Of a DNA stretch of 64,000 nt, positions 7,601-55,115 are shown piece after piece. Position 1 is the first letter of the stretch, and each line of letters opens with the position of its first letter. The stretch is from Rhodothermales bacterium. Lineage in GTDB: Bacteria > Bacteroidota > Rhodothermia > Rhodothermales > VXPQ01. The position numbers were made by a program, and so were the translations under genes. The notes under the pieces were generated by a model. The model searched no databases. It saw only the letters and a list, made by a program, of their open reading frames with translations, and was not told where the DNA came from. The stretch covers positions 62,001 through 126,000 of the forward strand of contig JAJECT010000035.1 in the NCBI GenBank assembly GCA_022821845.1, in the 5' to 3' direction.

Positions 7601-8185
7601 AAGCGCCTCGACGCTCGTTACGACCAGGCCTCGGAATCCGTCGGCGATTTGTTGCAGTACATCGGTTCGGGCGATGATCGGGGCCAGATCATCCAGTTGT
7701 TCGTCGTCGTAGGGTTTGCGTTTCGTGGCCGGGAGCTGCAAGGCGCCTCCTTCTTCCTCGACCAGTTGGGCAATGTCGCCAAGCGCCCAGGCGGCTATTT
7801 CTTCGTTTGGCGCAATGTAGACGCAGAGCGCGTTCGACGCCTTGGCCGTTTCGTGGAGCCGCCCCAGCAGGAAGGACGAAACAGATCCGGCCAACCCTTT
7901 TATCTGAAGCGTGGAGGGGGCTTCGGGGTCTATTCGTTCGCACCATGCGGACGCCTCGCGGAAAACGTCCGTGGAGGCCAGTTGCCTGCGAATCGAAGCA
8001 AGAGCCACGGAAATGGGACAGGTTTTGGGCGGAAAAGACGCGAGCGGTTGTTGCGCCGTCGCACATGTGGTGCGCCGGGCGCGTCGAAAAACGAAAAACG
8101 GGCCGGGATGTTCGCGGAAAGGCGGGGGAAAGGGCTTTGTCGTCGCCTGCGATGCTTCGTATGCGCGGAAATCGGGAGTTTCCAT
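4637..8185 (-). CDS. mfd: Transcription-repair coupling factor Mfd
   Basis: Mfd removes RNA polymerase stalled at DNA lesions and recruits UvrA for nucleotide excision repair; uvrA is also in this window. The product is about 1182 aa from the ATG at 8185. Motifs in order: the UvrB-like N-terminal module, the RNA-polymerase-interacting domain (FVVHVDYGIGRFAGLHRITV), the translocase Walker A (CGDVGFGKTEVAVRAA), the DEEQ box (LIIDEEQRFG), motif VI (QLRGRVGRSDRKAFCYLL) and the C-terminal TRCF domain. The first 50 or so residues are low-similarity and Pro/Arg-rich, so the true start may be downstream. The ATG sits inside one copy of a 48-bp AT-rich repeat, which probably supplies its promoter. Confidence 0.96.
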   Translation of the reverse strand: METPDFRAYEASQATTKPFPPPFREHPGPFFVFRRARRTTCATAQQPLASFPPKTCPISVALASIRRQLASTDVFREASAWCERIDPEAPSTLQIKGLAGSVSSFLLGRLHETAKASNALCVYIAPNEEIAAWALGDIAQLVEEEGGALQLPATKRKPYDDEQLDDLAPIIARTDVLQQIADGFRGLVVTSVEALAEMAPPAETIRNRTISIATGMVVPPEDLAQRLVESGFEHVEFVERPGEIALRGGILDIYPFAGSWPVRAEFFGDDIESLREFDPRSQRSVSRLTTARLVPNTEGNLSDAVTRASIFDQFPERALLVTTDEKGLTEYAAERFEAAEKAWRHALGENPEAPAPATRYLSGEAFELALLRRNRILLGSFAAAGERILRFEAAPQPDFNGNIRLLRTRILNNAERSARTFILCESRGQETRLSELLDDETAQENVRISIESLHEGFEIPSLGLAVYTDHQIFDRYHRPSVRGQKKRYGGLGLQALKNLSPGDFVVHVDYGIGRFAGLHRITVREKQQESVKVLFRDEDILYVNVNALHKLHKYSGKDGRTPALTKLGSGQWERTKSRAKSKVKDIARDLIALYAKRKKSAGIAFSPDTIWQREMEASFRYEDTPDQTAATDAVKTDMETAAPMDRLICGDVGFGKTEVAVRAAFKAAQDGKQVAILAPTTILAAQHFKTFSTRLEKYPVHVDMLSRFRSAAEQKQIVRRVAEGGVDIVVGTHRLTSQDIRFKDLGLLIIDEEQRFGVAVKERLRKLRAEVDTLTLTATPIPRTLQFSLLGARDLSLVATPPPNRQPVNTEIHTFDKDLIRDAILYEVSRGGQVFFLHNNICNIDEMADTLRLIAPNVRMRTAHGQMKSSELERVMADFIGGRFDVLVSTSIIENGLDIPNANTIVINRADRFGLAELHQLRGRVGRSDRKAFCYLLVASIHGLTREARQRLQAVEEFSDLGSGFNLAMRDLDIRGAGNLLGGEQSGFIDEIGFETWHKILEEAVLELRNEEFTDALDDKAPPPAPETAVDIEADALLPERYVSNNVERLNIYRRISEAEDIASLQTLRDEMQDRFGDLPDEAGHLFIAAEMKFLGQSLRLPRVLFKNERLFLYMPSAESDPYFHEHLFYRFLEELSNLDRRYVLKETKSRTVRAIVQEVPELSDACALLRRLQPEAASVAA

Positions 8186-42464: not shown

Positions 42465-42971
42465 CTAGAAGTTATGTTTGGCAAGCTCTGCCGTGAAACG
42501 CGCTATTACACGCTCGTTGATGTGGAGTGGGTTTGATTTTTGTATCTGCCGTGCGACAGCCATGGCGCGGCGTCGCGTAAGGGCGCCGACGGCGACCAGG
42601 TCTACCATGAGGCCAAGGCCGAACCGTGTTGCTACGCCGAGCCGCGCGCAGAGACGACGAAGTGCGCTGTCATTTGTGACGCACGTCCAGTTTTTATCAA
42701 TGCACGCCATCAGGCAGAGGTAATCATTAAAGGATACGCGCGGCTCGGCTTCTGCGGCCTGTGTCAGCCATGCTGTCTCGATTTCGACAACCTCAATTCC
42801 AAGTTGCGTGCATTGCGCTTCCGTTACGCCCTTGACTTCATCAAGTACGGGAGAGAGCACGACTACCTTGCCTATATGCCGTACTATGAGTTCAAGAATG
42901 TCGAACGCTGACTCGCGGTAGTCTATAAGCACATCTGCATCCGCGAGAAGCGTCGTATGCTCCCCTCTCAT
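42465..42971 (-). CDS. PIN-domain protein, probable ribonuclease toxin
   Basis: PIN proteins are metal-dependent RNases and are common toxins. The 168-aa product has the acidic start LLADADVLIDYRES, a conserved Glu segment (VVLSPVLDEVKG) and the C-terminal WTCVTNDSALRRLCARLG with the Thr-Asn-Asp motif. It begins directly after the stop of an HTH-ImmA/IrrE gene with no gap, so the two form a unit like toxin and antitoxin pairs in which the HTH-metallopeptidase acts as regulator. A diverged paralogue lies at 44333-44929. Start chosen as ATG 42971. Confidence 0.82.
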   Translation of the reverse strand: MRGEHTTLLADADVLIDYRESAFDILELIVRHIGKVVVLSPVLDEVKGVTEAQCTQLGIEVVEIETAWLTQAAEAEPRVSFNDYLCLMACIDKNWTCVTNDSALRRLCARLGVATRFGLGLMVDLVAVGALTRRRAMAVARQIQKSNPLHINERVIARFTAELAKHNF

Positions 42972-44105
42972 TTACCCCACCCATTCGCGCGCATATTTTC
43001 TCATTTCATCACGGTGGAGTCCCAGAATCTCGGCGGCGCGTCCCATGGAGATATGTTCTTGCTCCAGCGCTTGTCGCACGAGCCGCGCAAGGCGATCCTC
43101 AATAAAATCGTGCCGGGAAAGGCCTTCTGGTTCGCCGGCGCGGTTCCAGTTCCAGGCGAATTCGCTTTTATCAAGCGCGCCGGGTTCCTGGGTTTTCCGC
43201 AGTGTCTTGCCGAAATGGTAGCGATGCTGGAGTTGAAATGTACGCCAGATATCCGGGGTTGCACGCTCCGATTCAACCAGCCGGTAGAGCACGGTCTTGT
43301 AACTTACCCGGAATATCCGCTTGACCTTCAGGACGCGTACGAGGAGCGGATGTCCCCGGGTTTCGTTCCACTCCGGTTCGAACCCGGCTTCTGGCATCAG
43401 GAAATGACTTGCGAAAGTATCGGCTTCGCGCTCTGCCTGTACGGGAAGTTCGGTCGCGTCGCGTTGATATTGCGCCGGATGGAGCAGCAGGTGGCCAAGT
43501 TCATGTACTGCGGTGAATATCCAGCGCTCCACTGAAATGCGGTTCCAGACATTGACCACTACCGCGGGGCCGCCGTCTTTTGCGCCAACGCTGAGTCCAA
43601 AGAAGGAGTCGCTCTTCTTCTTTAGGAGCAGAAGTTTTACCCCATTGTGTTCAAGCAACCCGCAGATGTCTCTCACGGGTTCTTTTTGGGTCAAACCAAT
43701 AGATTGGCGTGCAGCCTGTGCAATTTGCACCGGTTTTCCGGGTCGCGCCTCAATGATGTTGAACTGGAAGGGGCGCGCGACGCCAAGGTTGGCTTCGATT
43801 TGGGTATAGGCGTCAAGCCGTTTTGCAACCTCGGCCAGTATCTGCGCTCGAACATGTATCCGTGCCCGGGCCCGGAATCGTACGGTTTTGAGAGGCCGCA
43901 CAGGTCTTACAAGATCGCCAAGCGGAACCTGCAAGGCTTTTGCGAGCGCGGCGACGGTCCTGGCGCGCGGGGCGACGGCGCCCCTTTCAATGTTTCCAAG
44001 CGCCATCCGCGAAAGCCCCGCTTTGCGAGCGAGTTTTTCCTGGGTCAACTGCCGGTCCAGTCTTAGCCGGGCGACATTCGAAGCAATTATTTTTTTGTCA
44101 GGCAT
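42972..44105 (-). CDS. HTH plus ImmA/IrrE-type metallopeptidase, probable antitoxin/regulator
   Basis: The 377-aa product has an XRE helix-turn-helix at residues 8-65 (DRQLTQEKLARKAGLSRMAL) and an M78-family metallopeptidase domain with AVHELGHLLLH (HELGH at 201-205) and a third ligand in the AEREADTFASHFLMPE stretch. Relatives such as ImmA and IrrE cleave repressors on a stress signal. Many HTH-ImmA genes precede PIN or other toxins. The C-terminal third (GALDKSEFAWNWNRAG; AAEILGLHRDEMRKYA) adds a helical region. The AT-rich DNA just upstream (44110-44165) would hold the promoter. Confidence 0.88.
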   Translation of the reverse strand: MPDKKIIASNVARLRLDRQLTQEKLARKAGLSRMALGNIERGAVAPRARTVAALAKALQVPLGDLVRPVRPLKTVRFRARARIHVRAQILAEVAKRLDAYTQIEANLGVARPFQFNIIEARPGKPVQIAQAARQSIGLTQKEPVRDICGLLEHNGVKLLLLKKKSDSFFGLSVGAKDGGPAVVVNVWNRISVERWIFTAVHELGHLLLHPAQYQRDATELPVQAEREADTFASHFLMPEAGFEPEWNETRGHPLLVRVLKVKRIFRVSYKTVLYRLVESERATPDIWRTFQLQHRYHFGKTLRKTQEPGALDKSEFAWNWNRAGEPEGLSRHDFIEDRLARLVRQALEQEHISMGRAAEILGLHRDEMRKYAREWVG

Positions 44106-44244
44106 TTTTCTTTCCCTAATCAGCTGGTAAAATAATCATTTTTTATAATTTTGTCAAAATGATAATTTTCGAATAGAGTCCAAAGCGCAAACCAGCGTCG
44201 GGGTCGATGGGCAGATCGAGATTATGATCTGATTTGCATCGGCG

Positions 44245-44342
44245 GCGACGGGCGCGTACTTGCCGGGATGGGGGCGCTGGGGCAAGGGGTAGGCGGGCGG
44301 AGCGGTGGCCGTTCGGTTCCGAATGCGGGCGGTCATTTGGGC
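44245..44342. repeat. Duplicated segment of the upstream membrane-protein 3' end
   Basis: Bases 44245-44330 repeat 42374-42470 with small gaps. Shared blocks include GCGACGGGCGCGTACTTGC and CCGTTCGGTTCCGAATGCGG. The first copy is the end of the gene at 41975-42421 plus the gap to the PIN gene. The second copy ends the paralogous PIN gene. This marks a tandem duplication of about 1.9 kb that included the whole toxin-antitoxin pair. Confidence 0.75.
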
Positions 44343-44929
44343 GCGCGCATGGTAAGTTCCGCCATGAAACGGGCTATTGCCCGCTCGTTGGCGTGGAAGG
44401 GGTGCAGTCCCTGCATGCGCTGCGCGATGGCTATGGCGCGGCGTGGCCCGAGGGCGCCGGCGGCGACCATATCCTCCACCGGGCCAATGCTGTATTTCGT
44501 CGCGACGCCGCGCCGTATGCAAAGACGCCGAAGCGGCCCGTCGTTCGTGACGCATGTCCAGTTTTTGTCCATGCATGCGAGCAGGCAGAGGTATCCATTG
44601 AAGGACACGTGCGTACTGGTTTCCGCAGCCTGCATCAGCCAGGCGGTCTCGGTCGGGACAATATCGACGCCAACTTGTTCGCATTGGCCGGGCGTTACAT
44701 CTCCCGTTTCGTGGAATACGGGTTCGAGGACGGCCACTTTGCCTATGTGGCGCTTTATCAGTTCAAGGACGCCGAATTCGGACTCGTGGTAGTTTACGAG
44801 TACGTCCGCATCCGCAATAAGCATTGCAGGAGGAATCGTCATTTCTTCGAGGGGGAGGGACTGCCGGGCTTTCGCCGCGTATTGCCAAAACGGCGCCATG
44901 CGCGCCTCGTTCATGTTGCCCGTCGCCAT
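44333..44929 (-). CDS. PIN-domain paralogue fused to an HTH remnant
   Basis: The PIN part (from M at 44842) parallels the PIN protein at 42465-42971: MLIADADVLVNYHES against LLADADVLIDYRES, and WTCVTNDGPLRRLCIRRG against WTCVTNDSALRRLCARLG. Ahead of it in the same frame is RARKAGLARMATGNMNEARM, which aligns with LARKAGLSRMALGNIERGAV of the neighbouring HTH-ImmA protein. So a deletion removed the metallopeptidase and joined a piece of the HTH to the toxin without breaking the frame. The acidic residues are still present. Translation may start at 44929 or at 44842. It is a copy that has lost its dedicated antitoxin. Confidence 0.65.
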   Translation of the reverse strand: MATGNMNEARMAPFWQYAAKARQSLPLEEMTIPPAMLIADADVLVNYHESEFGVLELIKRHIGKVAVLEPVFHETGDVTPGQCEQVGVDIVPTETAWLMQAAETSTHVSFNGYLCLLACMDKNWTCVTNDGPLRRLCIRRGVATKYSIGPVEDMVAAGALGPRRAIAIAQRMQGLHPFHANERAIARFMAELTMRAPK

Positions 44930-44968
44930 TCGCGCGAGACCTGCCTTGCGAGCGCGTTCCCTTCCCGG
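44843..44968 (-). pseudogene. Remnant of a second HTH-ImmA/IrrE gene (HTH part only)
   Basis: About 40 codons align with residues 22-66 of the HTH-ImmA protein at 42972-44105: RERARKAGLARMATGNMNEA, then AAKARQSLPLEEM against ALAKALQVPLGDL. No suitable start lies upstream, and the rest of the metallopeptidase is absent. It runs in frame into the paralogous PIN gene. The remaining bases up to 45102 hold nothing that I can identify. Confidence 0.6.
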
Positions 44969-45102
44969 CGCGCTATCGATGCTGCCTCCGTCGGGCGACC
45001 TTGAAGCCCATGATGCCGCCTCGGGCAGCGTGGCTGCTTGAAGCGGCTTGCAAAGTTAATCGTTTCTTCATTTTCGTCAAAGCGATTTTTTCAAAATATT
45101 CC

Positions 45103-45303
45103 TCAGGATTTCGCCGGCGCTCCGTCTCGCTCGTATCCGTCGCAGCGCAGCACGGGCAGGCGCGGATATTTCGGGTACTTCGGGTCGGTTCGGGAGCGTT
45201 TGCACAGGTAGAACCGGCTTCCTGTCCGGGAAACGACGATCCGCAGTCGGCGGCAATGCAGGCAAAGCCCGACGTTTGCGCTCCCGGCAGGGTTTTCAGG
45301 CAT
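45103..45303 (-). CDS. Small cysteine-rich (zinc-ribbon-like) protein
   Basis: The 66-aa product reads [20 protein letters not shown] then [20 protein letters not shown] and RCDGYE. The Cys-x-x-Cys plus two further cysteines and the YPKYPxLPVLxCxGYE ending belong to a widespread small protein family of unknown function. The start at 45303 is chosen because family members are about this long; the frame continues upstream. It overlaps by 8 bases the end of a cobalamin-binding-protein remnant, hinting at a former operon. Confidence 0.7.
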
Positions 45304-45472
45304 TTTCCCAGTATTGCCACCCATGTCCGTAGCGTCCAAAATCGAACCGCGCTGGATGCAGGAATTCCGCCAGTATTTCGGCGGATTCCACGACGCGCGG
45401 GCCGGGTCGGTTGAAGTAGTGATTGCCATCCGTCATGATCACGCGCCCCTCTTGGACGGCGAAGAGGGGGGC
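45296..45472 (-). pseudogene. Cobalamin-binding periplasmic protein (BtuF-like), C-terminal remnant
   Basis: About 58 codons match the C-terminus of BtuF-like substrate-binding proteins: [40 protein letters not shown], then [15 protein letters not shown]. The region upstream (up to 45652, still open) has no such character, and the signal peptide and N-lobe are missing. It is a remnant of a vitamin B12 uptake gene. Between 45473 and 45674 I see no other gene. Confidence 0.6.
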
Positions 45473-45674
45473 GGTTGTGAAAGATAGGCTTCCGGCGCGT
45501 CGTACGCTACCGATTTGCGGCGCAAGTCGGCGAATCCGTCTGAACTTTTCGCGGTTTTCGGCATTGAGTGTAAAACGGGCGGCGAGAAGGTGTGTCGGGC
45601 ACGGGTTTCGACAAGGTCGCCAGCGGGGATTAACGGCATTCCATAGCGTCACAGGGCTATTCGATCAGGGAATT

Positions 45675-46295
45675 ATGGGCAAGGTCTTCATCTACTGGGA
45701 TAACTCGAACGTTTTCATCAGCGCTCAGGCGGTAGCTTCCGAACGCGAGGGGCCGTCGGCGCTTGCGCGCGTACGCGTGGATTTCAGAAATATGCTTCGG
45801 TTGGCAGCGGCGGATCGTCCCATTCACCGGGCATTGGCGGTGGGTTCCATTCCGCCGGAGTTGCGCATAGTCTGGAATCGGCTGGAAAACGAGGGCGTTG
45901 AGGTGCAGTTGCTGGAGCGGGGAGCGCTTGGCGGCGGAGAGCAGGGCGTGGACCAGTTGCTTCAGACCGCTATGCTCCGCGATGCGCTCGATTTCAACGG
46001 CGACCCCGGCGTTGTGGTGTTGCTAACCGGCGATGGACAGGGGTTTGTGGATGGCGTGGGTTTCTACGCAGATTTGCGGCGTATGCATCGCAAGGGATGG
46101 CGGGTTGAGGTGCTTTCGTGGAGACACAGTTGCAATCGCGCCATGCGGGAGTGGGTCGAGGAACACGGCCGCTTCATAGCGCTGGACGATTTCTACGAAA
46201 GCGTTACGTTTCTCGTTGGCGCGGCGCCGGGCCAGCCCGTGGCCGATGCGCGATACGCCAAACCGGTGGATATGGCGCGGCGTACCGGAGCATGA
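45675..46295 (+). CDS. NYN-domain (LabA/DUF88-like) putative ribonuclease
   Basis: NYN domains are PIN-like RNases. The 206-aa product starts MGKVFIYWDNSNVFISAQAV, with the expected Asp-Asn pair (D9, N10). It continues with QGVDQLLQTAMLRDAL, GVVVLLTGDGQGFVDGVGFY (the TGD motif) and a final helix pair (WRVEVLSWRHSCNRAMREWV). The C-terminal 25 residues are Ala/Pro-rich. The start is the ATG at 45675; the frame is open upstream without family character. It stands alone among decayed genes. It may be a defence or RNA-processing nuclease. Confidence 0.82.
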   Translation: MGKVFIYWDNSNVFISAQAVASEREGPSALARVRVDFRNMLRLAAADRPIHRALAVGSIPPELRIVWNRLENEGVEVQLLERGALGGGEQGVDQLLQTAMLRDALDFNGDPGVVVLLTGDGQGFVDGVGFYADLRRMHRKGWRVEVLSWRHSCNRAMREWVEEHGRFIALDDFYESVTFLVGAAPGQPVADARYAKPVDMARRTGA

Positions 46296-46428
46296 ACGCA
46301 ACCAGGATCAGACATATCTGGATGCGCTCGAAGCAGCCGACGATGGCGATCTCGAACCGCTTGTGGGTATGATTGCCCGGTTTCAGCGGATTCGGTTTGC
46401 GAAATTGACGGCGTTGGCCGTCCGCGAA
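46288..46428 (+). pseudogene. Fic-family protein, C-terminal remnant
   Basis: A 47-codon stretch reads RNQDQTYLDALEAADDGDLE, PLVGMIARFQRIRFAKLTAL. The YLDALEAADxGDLxPLV pattern is typical of the end of some Fic-domain proteins. No HPFxDGNGR core is present nearby. It begins inside the 3' end of the NYN gene in another frame, so the rest was lost. A complete but different Fic gene lies at 51559-52752. Confidence 0.45.
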
Positions 46429-46469
46429 ATCCCCTATTTTTCTAACGGATATTTATGTAACTCTTTACA

Positions 46470-46499
46470 GGGAGGCGATTTCGAATCGCGGCCTCTCCT
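46470..46499. repeat. Imperfect inverted repeat in a gene-poor gap
   Basis: GGGAGGCGATTTCGAATCGC continues into GGCCTCTCC and folds into a near-perfect hairpin. It is followed by two short repeats of TAAATAATTwAGG (46499 on and 46530 on). There is no T-run directly after it, so it is not a typical terminator. The gap 46429-46634 holds no other gene. Confidence 0.35.
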
Positions 46500-46634
46500 A
46501 AATAATTTAGGCGCAGGAAAACACACATTAAATAATTAAGGAGGCGGGGAGACGGTCGCCGTCAGGTCAAGCCGCGCAGAAATTGTTTCAACGGGTCAAG
46601 CGCTTGTGCATTCAGGTTCCAATGCTCCGGGCGT

Positions 46635-46742
46635 TCATATGCCTTGCACCTCGACATGCTCAATGCCCAGGAATCCGAGGAGGCAACGGACGAAGGCCTT
46701 GTCGGCCTCGCCCTCGACGAATACTACCCAAGACGTACGCAT
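46635..46742 (-). pseudogene. Truncated DUF3226/TOPRIM-like companion of the OLD-like ATPase
   Basis: The ATG overlaps the ATPase stop (TAATG). The 35-aa product reads SWVVFVEGEADKAFVRCLLG, then FLGIEHVEVQGI and stops. VEGEADKxF is the start of the TOPRIM-like DUF3226 domain, normally about 200 aa and encoded next to an AAA_21 ATPase. Only the first strand and helix remain, so the catalytic aspartates are lost. It is either a pseudogene or a stop introduced by an error. Confidence 0.6.
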
Positions 46743-47878
46743 TATCTGATCTCAATGCCGTGCCGTATGCAGTGATCGAATTGCTCGTACTGGTACCGAT
46801 AGGACCGCACGAGCCCGGCTTTATCCCGCTGTAGCGCGTAACAGTTCGTCGTGGCTTGACGCCCGGAGAACGCTTCTTCGCGCAGCGCTTGTTGCAAGCT
46901 CTGCAATACGTTGAGGCTATTCGTGGTCGCGAACACCTGCATGCCTTGCTCATGCGACAGGGCAAGCAAGGCTTCCAATAAGGAGCGCACGGTGGTGTGG
47001 TGCAGTCCGTGTTCCAGTTCGTCGATCAACAATATCTGCTCATTTCCGAGAATGCAAGGAGCGAGAATGGCCGCAGCCCGGGTCACGCCGCTGCCGAACA
47101 TGTTGAGCGGGATCATTTCGTCCAGACCCGTATCGGCGAAAGTGGCATTGCCTTTTACGATTATATTCGTAATGCGCGGATTGATGATCTGCAGAAATTC
47201 GACGAGTGTATCGCTCCTTTTTTTGATGAGCACATCGCCGATTATGTCGCTTGAATAGCCGGACATCACCGTTACATACCTACTGCCGCCGATCATTTGC
47301 TTGCTTACCGGGTTCAATGGTTCAGTGAGTTGAATATTGTCGCCGCTCGCAACGCGGATCGCATTGGAAAAAGACCACGCCGCTCCCCGTCGAGGTTTCA
47401 CGGTAACGTCATATCGCAGGATTTTGGGGCCGACAGGCACTGCGGAAAAGGGCATGTCGACCGCTTGTCCGCCGCTTCCGGTTCCTCGCGCACTGCCGTT
47501 GCCTCCGTTCACCATATGTTGCACCCCAATGTCTATCTCGGTTTTCTCTTGCTCGGCAGAAAGCGTCAACTTCTGAAGTTTCACAGGCCCGCTGGAATGC
47601 GCCGCCAACCTGATTGGGGCATCAATGTCCAGATCGTGAAAGAAAAGAGCCAAGTCGCTAAAGTTATTTACGCGCAGATTTCTCCAATTCTGGACATTGA
47701 TGGCCAGAAATGGATTGGCGAAGCCTGATAACAGGAAAATTGCTTCCAGAGCGGATGTTTTGCCTACGTCGTTGGCGCCCAGCAGCATGTTGAACGTACC
47801 CAAACCGTCCAGTTCGAGGCGCTCCAAGCCGCGAAAGCCGCTTATCTCGATCTTGTTTACATGTTGTTTATCTGCCAT
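46742..47878 (-). CDS. AAA_21/OLD-like ATPase (SMC-type head)
   Basis: The 378-aa protein starts MADKQHVNKIEISGFRGLER, with Walker A MLLGANDVGKTSALEAIFLL near residue 30, an ABC-type signature region (FGSGVTRAAAILAPCILGNE), Walker B QILLIDELEHGLHHTT and a D-loop/H-loop (GMQVFATTNSLN). This fits overcoming-lysogenization-defect (OLD)-like AAA_21 ATPases, which act with a TOPRIM nuclease encoded in the same polypeptide or next door. The next gene is exactly such a TOPRIM but is cut to 35 codons. Similar pairs are phage defence systems. The open frame extends to 48016; the ATG at 47878 fits better. Confidence 0.82.
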   Translation of the reverse strand: MADKQHVNKIEISGFRGLERLELDGLGTFNMLLGANDVGKTSALEAIFLLSGFANPFLAINVQNWRNLRVNNFSDLALFFHDLDIDAPIRLAAHSSGPVKLQKLTLSAEQEKTEIDIGVQHMVNGGNGSARGTGSGGQAVDMPFSAVPVGPKILRYDVTVKPRRGAAWSFSNAIRVASGDNIQLTEPLNPVSKQMIGGSRYVTVMSGYSSDIIGDVLIKKRSDTLVEFLQIINPRITNIIVKGNATFADTGLDEMIPLNMFGSGVTRAAAILAPCILGNEQILLIDELEHGLHHTTVRSLLEALLALSHEQGMQVFATTNSLNVLQSLQQALREEAFSGRQATTNCYALQRDKAGLVRSYRYQYEQFDHCIRHGIEIR

Positions 47879-48152
47879 GGGGCGCTTTCTGGTTACCGTG
47901 GCGGAAGAGGTCTGTGACTGCACGGATGGATACGCTGGACCGATGCGTATGTGTCGCTGCGTTGAAAATAGTATTATACGGACAGGGCGCGCAGGGAGCA
48001 ACGGGGTCGCCGCCACAGGCTACGCCATCCGCCGGAAGCCCGGGCGCGGCGGCCTGGAGGGAGGGGTTTGGGGTGGGCATGGGGTGGTACTGGAGAGGGA
48101 AGGTTGAGGCGGTGGGGAATTCACCTGTTGGGGGCGGTGGGGCGGGGCCAGA
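47879..48152. other. Intergenic region, possible promoter of the OLD-like ATPase
   Basis: GC-rich with several purine/G runs (48075-48150) and one AT-rich spot near 47966-47980 that reads GTATAATACTATTTTC on the minus strand, a fair -10 element for the ATPase gene. I see no gene or RNA here. Confidence 0.3.
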
Positions 48153-49880
48153 TTAAGCCGATAAATGATTTTCTCCCTGCCATTCGGGCACCTGTTGATC
48201 GCGTTTTAGTCGCATGCGTTGCAGGCACAAGGCATCAAATATGTCGCTCAGTTCGCTTCCATCGGATCTAACCGTAGGCAAACTCGCCATCGCTTCCAGC
48301 CAGAAGCGTTTTTCCAGCAGGTAGTCGTCCTGATAGGCATAATTCCACCAACCGAGGATCCGGTCCTGCGCTGCTTTCAGAATAGCGTTTCCCGGCAATC
48401 GATCTCTTTTTTCGCGCTGATTCACACTCCGATGCGCTGGCATCAGGTTCCAAAGGTCGCCGCATGACCAGACGGCCCAGGGAAAACAGTGGTCTATATC
48501 TGCGGCGGTCATCGATAAACGCCTGCCGCTCCAGACGCAAAACAGTTTCTTCTCCATACATAATCGAATAGCGCGTTCCCTTGCGATTCGGACATCCCGG
48601 GAAGGTTCGGACCAGTCCATGGCAAGGGCAATGTCTCCATCCGTAATTTGCCGTTCCTGTCGTTCCGCATACCCTTTCATTAAACGCCCCCATTCTGCTA
48701 CCAGCGCAGGTTCTATCCAGACATCGAAGCGTCGCATAGCGCGCCACAAGTGCCTCGGAACCATCATTTTTCCGAAACTGGCGAGATATTCCCTGTTTAG
48801 CAGAATCTTTTCAGGTCTTTGCAAGGCACCTGTTTTGTCGATGGGAAATATGGGCTTGCCATCCGGGTATTTGATATACGTTGCAGGCATTCTTGCAATG
48901 GTTTCCGCCGCATCTTTCAGGGCGGCGTGCAATGCTTTTCCGATGTCCCCGGAAAAACTCATGCCTACCCGCATATCCAGAGGCGATACTTCTTTCAATC
49001 GCCGGAATCCCTCTTTGACGAAGCCGAGTTTATTCCCCTCGCTACCCCAATTGACAGGGCTTTGCGGCAAACCGGCGGAAATGAGGGGCTTGAAAAGCCG
49101 GAGCCATGTCAAGGCAACCAATCCAAGGGGCACGGCCACCGTCTCGTCATCTCTCTCCGTAACGAAGCCGGAGGCTCCATCTGCAACCCGGCAAAGACTC
49201 CGCAATAAAGCCGGCTTGTATGTGGAACTCTTGTCGTCATTCAAAATAATGTGGCGAAGAAGCGGCAGCGCTCCGAGTCCATCGTCCGGGAGCCGGACAG
49301 CAATTTGCGTCCAGGAAATATCGTTTCGTCCCAGGCGGTCTGCGCTTTCGGCGCATCGTTCCACAAACGCTCCGTGGTCACGCGCCAAATCCTCTATTTC
49401 GCCCGCCGTAGCCGGGTACATACCCCGCTGGGGATCGGCATAGCCCTGACGTAGCGTAATCGCAATGATTCCCCCGGGCTTGAGAAGATTGATCATCTTC
49501 CGAAAAGCCCTCGGGCGTTTGCCCTGGGGCACATGCATCCAGACGGCGCTAACCAGAATCAGATCGAAGGAGAGGCCAGAGCGGGTAAGTTCGGGTAAGC
49601 CAGGCAAAGCGTCTTTACTCCACTGGATTCGGGAGTCGGGATGTGTTCGCATCGCCAGTGCGCGCATCTGTGCGGACGGTTCCGCAGCCACCACATCGTA
49701 TCCCTTGTCCGCCAGCCACGCTGCATCGCGACCGCTTCCGGCGCCGACGTCCAGTACGGCCGCAGAGGAAGCGGGCAATAAATCCGTGAGCCAACCATGC
49801 ACCGATTCCGACGAAACGCCTTCGTATCGGGGCGCTACCTCGTTGGCGTGTGCGTCGTACCATGCGATGGCGCTGGTCAT
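48153..49880 (-). CDS. Fusion of a SAM-dependent methyltransferase and an HNH endonuclease domain
   Basis: The 575-aa protein begins with a class I methyltransferase domain: motif I AVLDVGAGSGRDAAWLADKG (residues 41-60), VVAAEPSAQMRALA, and LILVSAVWMHVPQG with KMINLLKPGGIIAITLRQG. Residues 205-440 are a separate all-helical region (HIILNDDKSSTYKPALLRSL; VPLGLVALTWLRLFKPLI). The C-terminal part has an HNH nuclease signature: FCVWSGRRL, then AADIDHCFPWAVWSCGDLWN with DIDH at 461-464 and the following NLMPAHRSVNQREK. The pairing of a modification-type and a cleaving domain suggests a self-protecting nuclease in defence. Not matched to a named system. It lies among accessory genes. Confidence 0.8.
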   Translation of the reverse strand: MTSAIAWYDAHANEVAPRYEGVSSESVHGWLTDLLPASSAAVLDVGAGSGRDAAWLADKGYDVVAAEPSAQMRALAMRTHPDSRIQWSKDALPGLPELTRSGLSFDLILVSAVWMHVPQGKRPRAFRKMINLLKPGGIIAITLRQGYADPQRGMYPATAGEIEDLARDHGAFVERCAESADRLGRNDISWTQIAVRLPDDGLGALPLLRHIILNDDKSSTYKPALLRSLCRVADGASGFVTERDDETVAVPLGLVALTWLRLFKPLISAGLPQSPVNWGSEGNKLGFVKEGFRRLKEVSPLDMRVGMSFSGDIGKALHAALKDAAETIARMPATYIKYPDGKPIFPIDKTGALQRPEKILLNREYLASFGKMMVPRHLWRAMRRFDVWIEPALVAEWGRLMKGYAERQERQITDGDIALAMDWSEPSRDVRIARERAIRLCMEKKLFCVWSGRRLSMTAADIDHCFPWAVWSCGDLWNLMPAHRSVNQREKRDRLPGNAILKAAQDRILGWWNYAYQDDYLLEKRFWLEAMASLPTVRSDGSELSDIFDALCLQRMRLKRDQQVPEWQGENHLSA

Positions 49881-50290
49881 GAAAGGCGGGGCGGATGGGC
49901 GGATATAAACGAAAAATAATCACTGCATAATATAGCGGTTTGGAGCAATCCTGACTGTGATAGATGGATTTCAGGGGGCTGTGGCTGCCTTGGACAGTGC
50001 TTCTTGGCTGCGGAGGCGGTCGGGCACGATGCCGCTTCCACTGTGCGTAGGCACGGGGGCGGCGCCCAAGATATGGAATCCGCGGCGGAACTGATCGGCG
50101 CAACGCTCAAAAAACTTGCCGCCATCGAACAATTTGACCTTGTTTAGCGGTGTTGGGCTTGGTATTCATTGTAAAGTACCAAGAATGAAGTCATTAATAT
50201 AGATACTGACTTACGAAAGCAAAAAAATTAACGAAAATATTAAATAAATCTGGATAGTAAATTTATGAACAAAAATGGTGAAAAAAATCA
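49881..50290. other. Intergenic region with an unassigned short ORF
   Basis: The left end (49905-49935) is AT-rich and may carry the promoter of the methyltransferase-HNH gene. On the plus strand the frame ending at 50146 reads MESAAELIGATLKKLAAIEQ then FDLV, which looks protein-like and could be the tail of a lost gene. The right part (50150-50290) is very AT-rich and belongs to the next gene's downstream flank. Confidence 0.3.
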
Positions 50291-51292
50291 TTAATTATCG
50301 CCTGGTTTTAGTGTTTTTGTAAATTGTTCTATAATCAGCTTGGATGATGTCATATGGTCTTCCTTGTCGCGAATAAGGCCAGAAGGACCGAAGGTTGCAA
50401 CTTCTTCAACAAGAATGGACAGTATTTTATCTCTTTGTTCTTCTGTAATTGCAGCGTGGACAAAGGAATCCATGCTTTTGGCGATATGCTGCCTATGGAG
50501 ATTATGCCGCGCCATATGCATTTTTGATCGATAAATACGCAAACAAAAAGTGGCGACAGCTCCAAGCACACCTAATAGAGTAAGCCTAATGGCTGTGCGA
50601 TATATCACCAATGCAAAGGGAGTATCTTGTTCGGGTTCCCCAGAGAATACAAAAATTAAGATTGCCACCAGAAGGAGTACTATAAGAGAGCACGACGCAC
50701 AGAACCAATTCCTTGATTCTTTATCAAAATTTTCTTGTGCTTCCTCGAACTGTATTACAGCCTGTTTGAACGAACCCTTAGTGGCCTCGCCTGTCAATAT
50801 AGCTCTTTTTTGCTCTGCTTCTTTAATGGCTTCCCTTGCGTCCTTAATACGCTCATCAAGTGTGCCAAGCACAGAATTTACAATGGCCTCGCGTTGAGCA
50901 ATGGCATCATCCTCAAGGATACCGCTATTAATAATTCTAGCCGTTATAAAATGTGCATCATATTTGGATAACTCCTCTTCATGAGAATCAAGCTGTTGCA
51001 AGGTTTCATCAACCATATTTACGTATTCATGGTTATCTGCATTATTAAGATTAACGAGCAAATTGTAAATCTCTTGCAAATTTGAAATGACGTGATTCAC
51101 GTAATCGTTACTTACTCCTTGAGCATATTTGAGATAATAGTCACATTTTTTCTTTAGATTATCAAAATAATTTTTTCTCTTTTCTTTTAAGGATAAATTG
51201 CCAACTTCTGGACGCATGATCCGTTCTTCCTCCAGATCGTTGAAAGAATTAACTATAGATTTTAGTTGTTCTATATAATGTTCAGAAGCCAT
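50291..51292 (-). CDS. Coiled-coil protein with two transmembrane helices, AT-rich, unknown
   Basis: The 333-aa product has a long helical N-terminal half (EEERIMRPEV; NLQEIYNLLVNLNNADNHEY; IKDAREAIKEAEQKRAILTG) predicted to form coiled coils. Two TM helices follow (residues 196-216, SLIVLLLVAILIFVF; 233-254, TAIRLTLLGVLGAVATFCLR), then a C-terminal helical domain (HIAKSMDSFVHAAITEEQRD). Codon use is clearly AT-rich compared with neighbours, so it was probably acquired recently. No family is recognised. It sits between the methyltransferase-HNH gene and a Fic gene. A membrane-anchored effector or sensor is possible, but this is only inference. Confidence 0.7.
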   Translation of the reverse strand: MASEHYIEQLKSIVNSFNDLEEERIMRPEVGNLSLKEKRKNYFDNLKKKCDYYLKYAQGVSNDYVNHVISNLQEIYNLLVNLNNADNHEYVNMVDETLQQLDSHEEELSKYDAHFITARIINSGILEDDAIAQREAIVNSVLGTLDERIKDAREAIKEAEQKRAILTGEATKGSFKQAVIQFEEAQENFDKESRNWFCASCSLIVLLLVAILIFVFSGEPEQDTPFALVIYRTAIRLTLLGVLGAVATFCLRIYRSKMHMARHNLHRQHIAKSMDSFVHAAITEEQRDKILSILVEEVATFGPSGLIRDKEDHMTSSKLIIEQFTKTLKPGDN

Positions 51293-51476
51293 TGTATGAT
51301 TTGTTTTGTTTGGTTATCAAGTGAAAAAGGCATCGGTATTCAAAATGGTCCGAATACCCCAGACAGTTTCCAAGGGCCGTAGGGGCATTTTTCCGTAATG
51401 GTGCCGGGTCACCGCATAGTACACACTTTCCAGGTATAGGCTTTTTATTGCGTTTTTGCCGTTTCCTGCCGGTCAT
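51282..51476 (-). CDS. Small basic protein with Cys-x-x-Cys, possibly a remnant
   Basis: A 64-codon ORF reads RKRQKRNKKPIPGKCVLCGD, then PAPLRKNAPTALGNCLGYSD. It overlaps the start of the coiled-coil/TM gene by 11 bases, an arrangement consistent with coupling. The CVLCG motif resembles the first zinc knuckle of an HNH or zinc-ribbon domain, but no second half follows. It may be a truncated gene. Weak evidence. Confidence 0.3.
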   Translation of the reverse strand: MTGRKRQKRNKKPIPGKCVLCGDPAPLRKNAPTALGNCLGYSDHFEYRCLFHLITKQNKSYNGF

Positions 51477-51558
51477 TTTTTCGAAACTTTTGTTGAGGGT
51501 GGAATAAACTACGCTTTTCTGTAGTACTTTGCAACCGCTTCCCGGCTGGAATCCTCCC

Positions 51559-52752
51559 TCACTCCACCCGTTCCGGAAACAACCCCGGCATCCAGCGCGC
51601 CGCGTATTGGGCCGGGAACGCCAGGCGCAGCGGCGCGCGCGAACTTTCCGAGGCGAGTACGTTCTGTTCGACGAGGGCGGATGTGATGCGCCGGGCCTGG
51701 CGCTTGCCGGTATCGACGATTTGCGCTACGTCCCCTCTGGGTAATTCGCCGCGGTACAGGACGGCTTCGATCACCATGCCGGATTGTTTGGGCAATGCGT
51801 CCATTCGAACTTGTTCTTCGACCCAGATCAGAATGCGGTGACGCAGTCGCTCGGGTTGCAAGAGGCTCGCCATGAAATCCACCTGGTCAATGCACGTATT
51901 CAGAAAAAAGCGCGTGAACTTCGCAAGCGCTTCCTCGCTCAAATGGCCCCTGCCGTCAAAATCGTTGCGGCGTTTCATGTCGCACGCCATGAGATGGCTC
52001 TTGTAATCCGTTTCGTTGCGGGCCAGCCCCCTGGCGATCGACCAGAGGCCGCCCGTATCCAGCGTTTCCAGCAACATGGCGTGGGACATCAGGCGAGCGA
52101 CCCGTCCGTTGCCATCCAGAAACGGGTGAATCCAGAGAAGCCGGTGATGCGCGCTTGCGGCGGCAAGGATGCGGTCCGTCTTCCCGAGCCGGTCATAGAC
52201 GGTTTCAAAACGTTCCATGAAGCGGGGCAATGCGCCGGGGCTTACCGGAATATGTCGTCCGATCCTTACGTAGCGATCCCGCAGGGTGCCAGGAATTACC
52301 TGTTTTCGCTCCCCGGTTTCCGGGTTTTCCACCCAGAGCAACGCTTCGGGCAGCCGTTCGGCGAACCGCCGGTGAATTTCCATGAGGCCGTCCACGGTCG
52401 TTTCGCGCCCCGTTAATCCGCCCTCGTCGATCCATTTCTGGACGATGATATGGGCCTCGGCTTCCAGCTGAAGATTTCGCTTTTCGGCGTCGTCGCTGTA
52501 TTCCTTCTTGAGCGCGCGTTCGATATCGACGGGATGCGTGTGGTGTCCTTCGATCAGATTGCTGTAGTAGCAGTTCATTGCTCGCACGAGGTTGGCGAGG
52601 CCGCCGAGTACGCCTGCGGGCAGGCTGCGGCGGAGGCTGGCCGATTTCGTCGCCAGCGTAAGCGCCAGGTCCGTCTGGGCGGCGCGATGCGTTGACCCGC
52701 TGCGTATCAGCATGGGTTCCGCCAGGCTGGTCGATTCGCCTTGATCCGTCAT
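51559..52752 (-). CDS. Fic family protein (probable AMP-transferase)
   Basis: Fic enzymes attach AMP or similar groups to target proteins. The 397-aa protein contains the core HPFLDGNGRVARLM (residues 209-222) with the catalytic His, and the inhibitory helix motif SNLIEGH at 64-70, ahead of the core as in class II (intramolecularly inhibited) Fic proteins. The C-terminal 100 residues look like a winged-helix DNA-binding module (VIEAVLYRGELPRGDVAQIV; GKRQARRITSALVEQNVLAS). No separate antitoxin gene is needed for such proteins and none is seen. The AT-rich upstream region (52750-52850) probably holds its promoter. Confidence 0.92.
   Translation of the reverse strand: MTDQGESTSLAEPMLIRSGSTHRAAQTDLALTLATKSASLRRSLPAGVLGGLANLVRAMNCYYSNLIEGHHTHPVDIERALKKEYSDDAEKRNLQLEAEAHIIVQKWIDEGGLTGRETTVDGLMEIHRRFAERLPEALLWVENPETGERKQVIPGTLRDRYVRIGRHIPVSPGALPRFMERFETVYDRLGKTDRILAAASAHHRLLWIHPFLDGNGRVARLMSHAMLLETLDTGGLWSIARGLARNETDYKSHLMACDMKRRNDFDGRGHLSEEALAKFTRFFLNTCIDQVDFMASLLQPERLRHRILIWVEEQVRMDALPKQSGMVIEAVLYRGELPRGDVAQIVDTGKRQARRITSALVEQNVLASESSRAPLRLAFPAQYAARWMPGLFPERVE

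Positions 52753-55115
<2,363 letters not shown>

Follow-up and report, generated by a model that had tools for sequence, protein, structure and literature searches.

The window, the whole 64,000-nucleotide stretch of DNA analysed here, contains an open reading frame at positions 48153-49880 of the minus strand that starts with ATG and encodes a protein of 575 aa; on the plus strand, stop codons break up this interval. The initial annotation had described a methyltransferase and an HNH nuclease in one polypeptide and had quoted a SAM-binding motif and an HNH signature. The reading frame, Pfam matches and full-length homologues confirmed this description, and both motifs were present in the translation. 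Residues 1-197 (49290-49880) correspond to a class I SAM-methyltransferase domain, with a motif I of the DxGxGxG type, an acidic residue after strand 2 and a match to Methyltransf_25 at residues 42-137 (3.4e-14; 53.7 bits against a cut-off of 27). Residues 441-575 (48153-48560) comprise an HNH_4 nuclease domain and a C-terminal tail. The HNH_4 match was located at residues 451-496 (1e-4; 22.6 bits against a cut-off of 22), and stand-alone HNH relatives scored up to 39.8 bits for the same family.

Twelve full-length homologues with 40-87% identity to the window protein were aligned (alignment A1). In SAM-binding motif I (VLDVGAGSGRDA; residues 42-53, 49722-49757), D44, G46, A47, G48, R51 and D52 were invariant, with D44, G46 and G48 forming the SAM loop, and E67 and D90 were likewise invariant in all 12 proteins. 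In the HNH core (residues 451-496, 48393-48530), the same was true of D463-H464, N478, N487 and K491, which occupy the D-H, N and N/K catalytic and metal positions of the HNH_4 superfamily and correspond to the DH...N...N motif of Cas9 HNH. The stand-alone HNH relatives aligned with the SpCas9 HNH domain, and their DH...N...N positions were in register with those of Cas9 HNH structures. In the junction segment RLPDDGLGALPLLR (residues 196-209, 49254-49295), D199, D200, G201, A204, P206, L207 and R209 were invariant among the fused proteins. A full-length structure prediction, based on the window protein together with a single relative of 95% identity, gave no usable model (mean pLDDT 36).

The helical region between the two domains (residues 204-440, 48561-49271), with the signature DDKSSTYKPALLR, matched no Pfam family. 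It had been annotated as an uncharacterised middle of 230 residues. This middle cannot be set apart from the HNH domain: residues ~208-570 of the fusion aligned end to end with the stand-alone HNH family, beginning at its N-terminus (hhalign 100%, E 1.4e-45). Because of this alignment, the middle region and the HNH domain are one module, which we call "TYK-HNH" after the signature (S/T)TYKxALLR.

The motif IV region of the methyltransferase reads ILVSAVWMH. An (S/D/N)PP(Y/F/W) motif IV, as in DNA amino-methyltransferases, was absent from the methyltransferase part of the A1 consensus, DNA-methylase models of Pfam gave no match in the fusion protein, and a cytosine-methylase motif was also not apparent. 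The closest named relatives were TehB, CmoM and UbiG-type enzymes. The enzyme had been annotated as a small-molecule type without the DNA amino-methylase motif, and the consensus agrees with that assignment.

The fusion gene lies upstream of gyrB, in a stretch of variable content. In the genus, this stretch (window 42465-53037; also L167, L168 and L169) is a defence hotspot, in keeping with the defence-like neighbourhood noted in the initial annotation. At the same gyrB site, the sister genome G352 carries SspA, SspB, SspC and SspD (PADLOC E-values 1.8e-127, 1.5e-101, 0 and 8.6e-138, respectively) together with helicase and GHKL-ATPase genes. Other genes occupy the site in G301 and in G313, the latter having neither the fusion nor ssp genes. 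The hotspot of the window also contains two PIN-like proteins (42465-42971 and 44333-44929; 62% identical to each other), between which lies an XRE-IrrE gene encoding an HTH and an M78 peptidase (42972-44105), possibly a toxin-antitoxin arrangement. An NYN-domain nuclease-like gene is located on the plus strand of the same island (45423-46295).

Next to the fusion gene, the minus strand carries an AAA_21/AbiLi-like ATPase (46742-48016) on one side and, on the other, a gene with a GC content of 38% (50291-51292) for a coiled-coil protein in which two transmembrane helices are predicted, and then a gene for a SoFic-like Fic protein (51559-52752). A functional link of the fusion to the ATPase or to the gene for the membrane protein, both named as neighbours in the initial annotation, was rejected because neither gene was present in any other fetched fusion locus; a DUF2911 gene takes the position of the ATPase in G301, and the context in G376 is different. 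Both are probably independent neighbours. The ATPase had been called OLD-like; an ATPase is indeed present, and it matched the AbiLi/AAA_21 models better than OLD. The Fic gene adjoins gyrB in G000, G301 and G313 and the fusion gene in G376. It is kept across the genus, also where the fusion is missing, and was rejected as an obligate partner because it adjoins gyrB in G313, which is without the fusion.

Full-length fusions were detected in three species of the genus, in a further two families of the order and on plasmids from Roseomonas, Sphingobium, Azospirillum, Pseudoalteromonas and, split into three pieces, Sinorhizobium. The gene encodes a single chain in at least 15 loci, and the whole fusion is found at 40-87% identity in Rhodothermota, Alphaproteobacteria and Gammaproteobacteria. 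In one scan of genome contigs, the sole match was a 95%-identical relative. A chance reading frame or an assembly-made fusion was ruled out because full-length homologues exist. The initial annotation would have been undermined by a fused frameshift confined to one assembly or by homologues occurring as two separate housekeeping proteins; the fusion is present in other genomes, and its parts do not behave as such housekeeping proteins.

In the HNH tree, all 15 fusions formed one clade (support 99/99; 100% of 200 bootstrap trees). The window branch grouped with the f8 Rhodothermota and Roseomonas plasmid copies and not with the f7 Rhodothermota proteins, which grouped with Pseudoalteromonas with moderate support. 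These groupings across Rhodothermota and proteobacteria point to lateral transfer, and the tree indicates one fusion event followed by lateral spread. Within the order, the distribution was patchy, with a match in 14 of 114 genomes, 10 of them full-length. When a 16-kb stretch of the window was compared with G376, the fusion gene alone matched at the DNA level (82% identity over 1.7 kb); the gene moves without its neighbours. Against the 87%-identical G376 homologue, the dN/dS of the gene was 0.09, with values of 0.09 (methyltransferase), 0.07 (middle region) and 0.14 (HNH domain) for its parts, indicating purifying selection on all three alike. Solitary fused copies in Sphingobium and Pseudoalteromonas were surrounded by ordinary genes. 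Apparently decayed copies, consistent with turnover, were also observed: one Roseomonas plasmid retains only an HNH fragment, and G437 retains pieces of the methyltransferase (L043:8022-8486 and L092:7600-8060). Scans of viral contigs yielded short partial relatives alone, in two contigs, and no phage record with the fusion, so the fusion is not typically a virus gene.

Both halves of the protein were also found apart. In Bacteroidota/Rhodothermota, a stand-alone TYK-HNH gene is almost always followed by a gene joining a different methyltransferase to a HIT domain, and the two reading frames usually overlap or nearly touch. Among 390 genomes, 16 methyltransferase-HIT genes were whole-length or nearly so relative to the profile, and distances read from the coordinates placed an HNH gene within ~60 bases of all 16. 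The neighbour was a stand-alone TYK-HNH in 14 cases, the fused methyltransferase-HNH in G195 and an HNH_2 protein in G282. In G440, outside this sample, the fusion is followed by a methyltransferase-HIT gene. The two methyltransferases stand side by side in two Rhodothermota genomes, so the fused methyltransferase is not a simple replacement of methyltransferase-HIT. A HIT protein without a methyltransferase partners HNH in L058, L059 and Polaromonas and Aromatoleum plasmids. Elsewhere in the window genome, no methyltransferase-HIT gene was found, only a short HIT-domain match. The two-gene unit of TYK-HNH and methyltransferase-HIT, located outside the window (L051-L057, L088 and L121-L129), is apparently undescribed.

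Unfused relatives of the N-terminal domain (METHYLTRANSFERASE) adjoined dnd genes in two Rhizobium plasmids and ssp genes in Sphingomonas and Sphingopyxis plasmids, and a further relative was present in the E. coli phage phi458 (prophage). In all five of these Dnd/Ssp/phi458 cases, the partner was a two-helix membrane protein, and the partners were homologous to one another (pairwise E ~1e-9 to 1e-70). In Rhizobium, the membrane protein is fused to the methyltransferase; in the remaining three cases, the two proteins have genes of their own, which overlap. The pairs or fusions are located at L079:5525-6597, L084:5558-6588, L041:2336-3519, L042:5584-6585 and L078:6563-7582, and the phi458 pair was detected in 29 of 5,426 complete E. 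coli genomes. Lone methyltransferase relatives in Streptomyces, Azospirillum, Paraburkholderia and Methylomonas were found in ordinary or transposon contexts. When distinct contexts of lone methyltransferases were counted, four of nine were Dnd/Ssp and five were other; those outside Dnd/Ssp loci formed a partly separate clade and may be unrelated metabolic enzymes.

Relatives of the HNH half were likewise found at phosphorothioation loci. In L122, a divergent TYK-HNH relative adjoins a cysteine-desulfurase-like gene, SspB (DUF4007) and SspC; the identity of DUF4007 with SspB has been described (PMC12839542). In L124, another divergent relative lies between a DUF4007-ATPase pair and methyltransferase-HIT. 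Both halves are therefore independently associated, as separate relatives, with phosphorothioation (Dnd/Ssp) loci, and only these relatives, not the fused gene itself, were found beside a Dnd or Ssp locus. The association is a lead with several independent instances in few loci, not a measured enrichment, and it is no proof of shared function because defence islands mix systems. In G309, a HIT-domain gene remnant directly adjoins the SspB (DUF4007) gene (L172, ~7608-7781), possibly a further HIT-Ssp link.

The reading that we favour, at a probability of roughly 40%, is that the fusion is a defence nuclease encoded by one gene and spread horizontally, with HNH as the effector and the methyltransferase as the part that controls it. 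The TYK-HNH module (residues ~204-575) would act as a DNase effector of the Cas9-HNH type that nicks or cuts DNA, and the N-terminal SAM-methyltransferase of this chain would serve as its control module. The methyltransferase would set HNH activity by binding to a DNA-linked substrate or by methylating it; the candidates are DNA that is foreign or carries modifications, and a nucleotide that arises in the course of infection. We infer the cleavage of DNA by HNH, the activity of the methyltransferase, its substrate, the direction of control and the anti-phage activity. The defence role itself is probable on indirect evidence, namely the hotspot, the mobility and the Ssp/Dnd links of the separate relatives. 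A control function was favoured because the methyltransferase is found with either of two unrelated effectors, HNH and a membrane protein, because a DNA amino-methylase motif is missing from it and because selection acts on both halves. Against this reading, five of the nine distinct contexts of lone methyltransferases are not Dnd/Ssp, the fused gene was not itself found beside such a locus, and in two Rhodothermota genomes the fused methyltransferase coexists with methyltransferase-HIT.

The main rival, which we consider somewhat unlikely, is a self-protecting single-chain restriction-modification enzyme, in which the methyltransferase would mark host DNA, the helical region would recognise the target and HNH would cut unmarked DNA. 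Such an enzyme could be mobile as one self-sufficient gene, as the fusion is, because it carries its own protection along. The HNH relatives are coupled to methyltransferases from two different subfamilies, which would make sense if the methylation chemistry were needed, and both subfamilies have relatives beside DNA-modification loci. However, neither a DPPY/NPPY-type nor a cytosine-methylase motif is apparent in an enzyme whose nearest relatives are of the TehB, CmoM and UbiG types, and a separate target-recognition domain was not recognised. The same type of methyltransferase is, moreover, coupled elsewhere to a membrane protein, in a setting without any nuclease that would make protection necessary. 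The initial annotation had proposed self-protection; it stays as one option, and a regulatory role explains the pairing of methyltransferase and membrane protein equally well or better. A role outside defence, in which a methyltransferase was joined to an HNH protein for a metabolic or repair function, appears quite unlikely. Several lone methyltransferase relatives in metabolic neighbourhoods and the solitary Sphingobium and Pseudoalteromonas fusions among ordinary genes are compatible with it, but the patchy presence in the order (14 of 114 genomes), the lateral spread and the defence hotspot are not what it predicts, and separate relatives neighbour Ssp/Dnd and restriction genes.

The boldest option, improbable in our estimate, is a nucleotide-signal system, in which the methyltransferase would make or sense a nucleotide that is methylated or derived from SAM, the response would come from HNH or the membrane protein, and HIT would clear the signal as an off-switch. 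The interchangeable HNH and two-helix membrane partners are consistent with this idea, as is the recurrent linkage of HIT to HNH, also without a methyltransferase; a HIT protein, ThsC, has been reported in type II Thoeris (PMC8565338). Nevertheless, a fused chain needs no diffusible signal, a signal-binding domain such as SAVED was not recognised, and the window genome is without a methyltransferase-HIT gene. A dyad of the AAA ATPase (46742-48016) with the window gene, similar to Septu or OLD-HNH, is the least probable by far. The two genes share a strand with a gap of 137 bp, and dyads of ABC ATPase and HNH have been described in BREX islands (PMC12839542), but the ATPase occurs in no other fetched fusion locus, its place being taken in G301 by the DUF2911 gene.

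If the methyltransferase-controlled HNH effector is the correct reading, a SAM-methyltransferase would be added as a control domain of immune nucleases, a new kind of effector would be associated with phosphorothioation loci, and a readily testable system consisting of one gene would be available. It would also join three overlooked pairs, namely methyltransferase-HNH, HNH with methyltransferase-HIT, and membrane protein with methyltransferase, the last of which, being present in E. coli genomes, can be tested directly in laboratory strains. More broadly and more doubtfully, the methyltransferase could be an immune control module with interchangeable effectors (the HNH DNase in the fusion and, in prophages and at Ssp/Dnd loci, the two-helix membrane protein) that forms, with the methyltransferase-HIT/HNH pair, an undescribed SAM-dependent defence family tied to DNA backbone modification, possibly via a methylated nucleotide or a phosphorothioate-linked substrate. 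In a literature search of open-licence papers, no published account of the fusion or of the pair of HNH and methyltransferase-HIT was found.

Among known systems, Cas9 HNH domains are the closest solved structures to the HNH part of the fusion, whereas the RuvC and guide-binding parts of Cas9 were not recognised. The conserved ATPase partner of the Septu and OLD-HNH dyads is missing from the other fetched loci. In type IIG/IIL single-chain enzymes, the methyltransferase bears an (S/D/N)PP(Y/F) motif and the target-recognition domain is recognisable. The fusion resembles them in combining a methyltransferase and a nuclease in one chain, but neither this motif nor this domain was seen in it. In PADLOC 2023, no model matched beyond the C-terminal methyltransferase region of MADS mad2 (PDLC04134; 6e-16, covering 277-421 of 492). 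No full MADS locus was found near the fusion, the sole other trace being an AAA similarity to mad3 that was weak and scored far under the cut-off, and no NCBIfam MAD model matched the window protein. TIGR04096, a DNA phosphorothioation-associated putative methyltransferase, has an N-terminal segment in common with the methyltransferase-HIT partner, and one member opens the dnd operon in L132. It is longer, however, without HIT or HNH, and the fused methyltransferase belongs to another subfamily. In SBD-SRA-HNH (ScoMcrA) and SRA-HNH proteins, found near dnd genes (PMC10853773), HNH is joined to a DNA-modification-related domain, as in the fusion, in which neither an SRA nor a sulfur-binding domain gave a Pfam match. 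SspE, the PT-sensing HNH nickase of SspABCD-SspE, differs in having a GTPase N-terminus and a DUF1524 HNH in place of the SAM-methyltransferase and HNH_4, and neither the DUF262-type NTPase nor the DUF1524 model that define SspE/GmrSD matched the fusion. Like the fusion in the favoured reading, it combines an HNH effector with an N-terminal control domain and is linked to phosphorothioation loci. Since its N-terminal domain holds back the HNH nickase until PT is sensed (PMC9646914), SspE provides a worked example for the N-terminal control of an HNH nickase in a phosphorothioation system.
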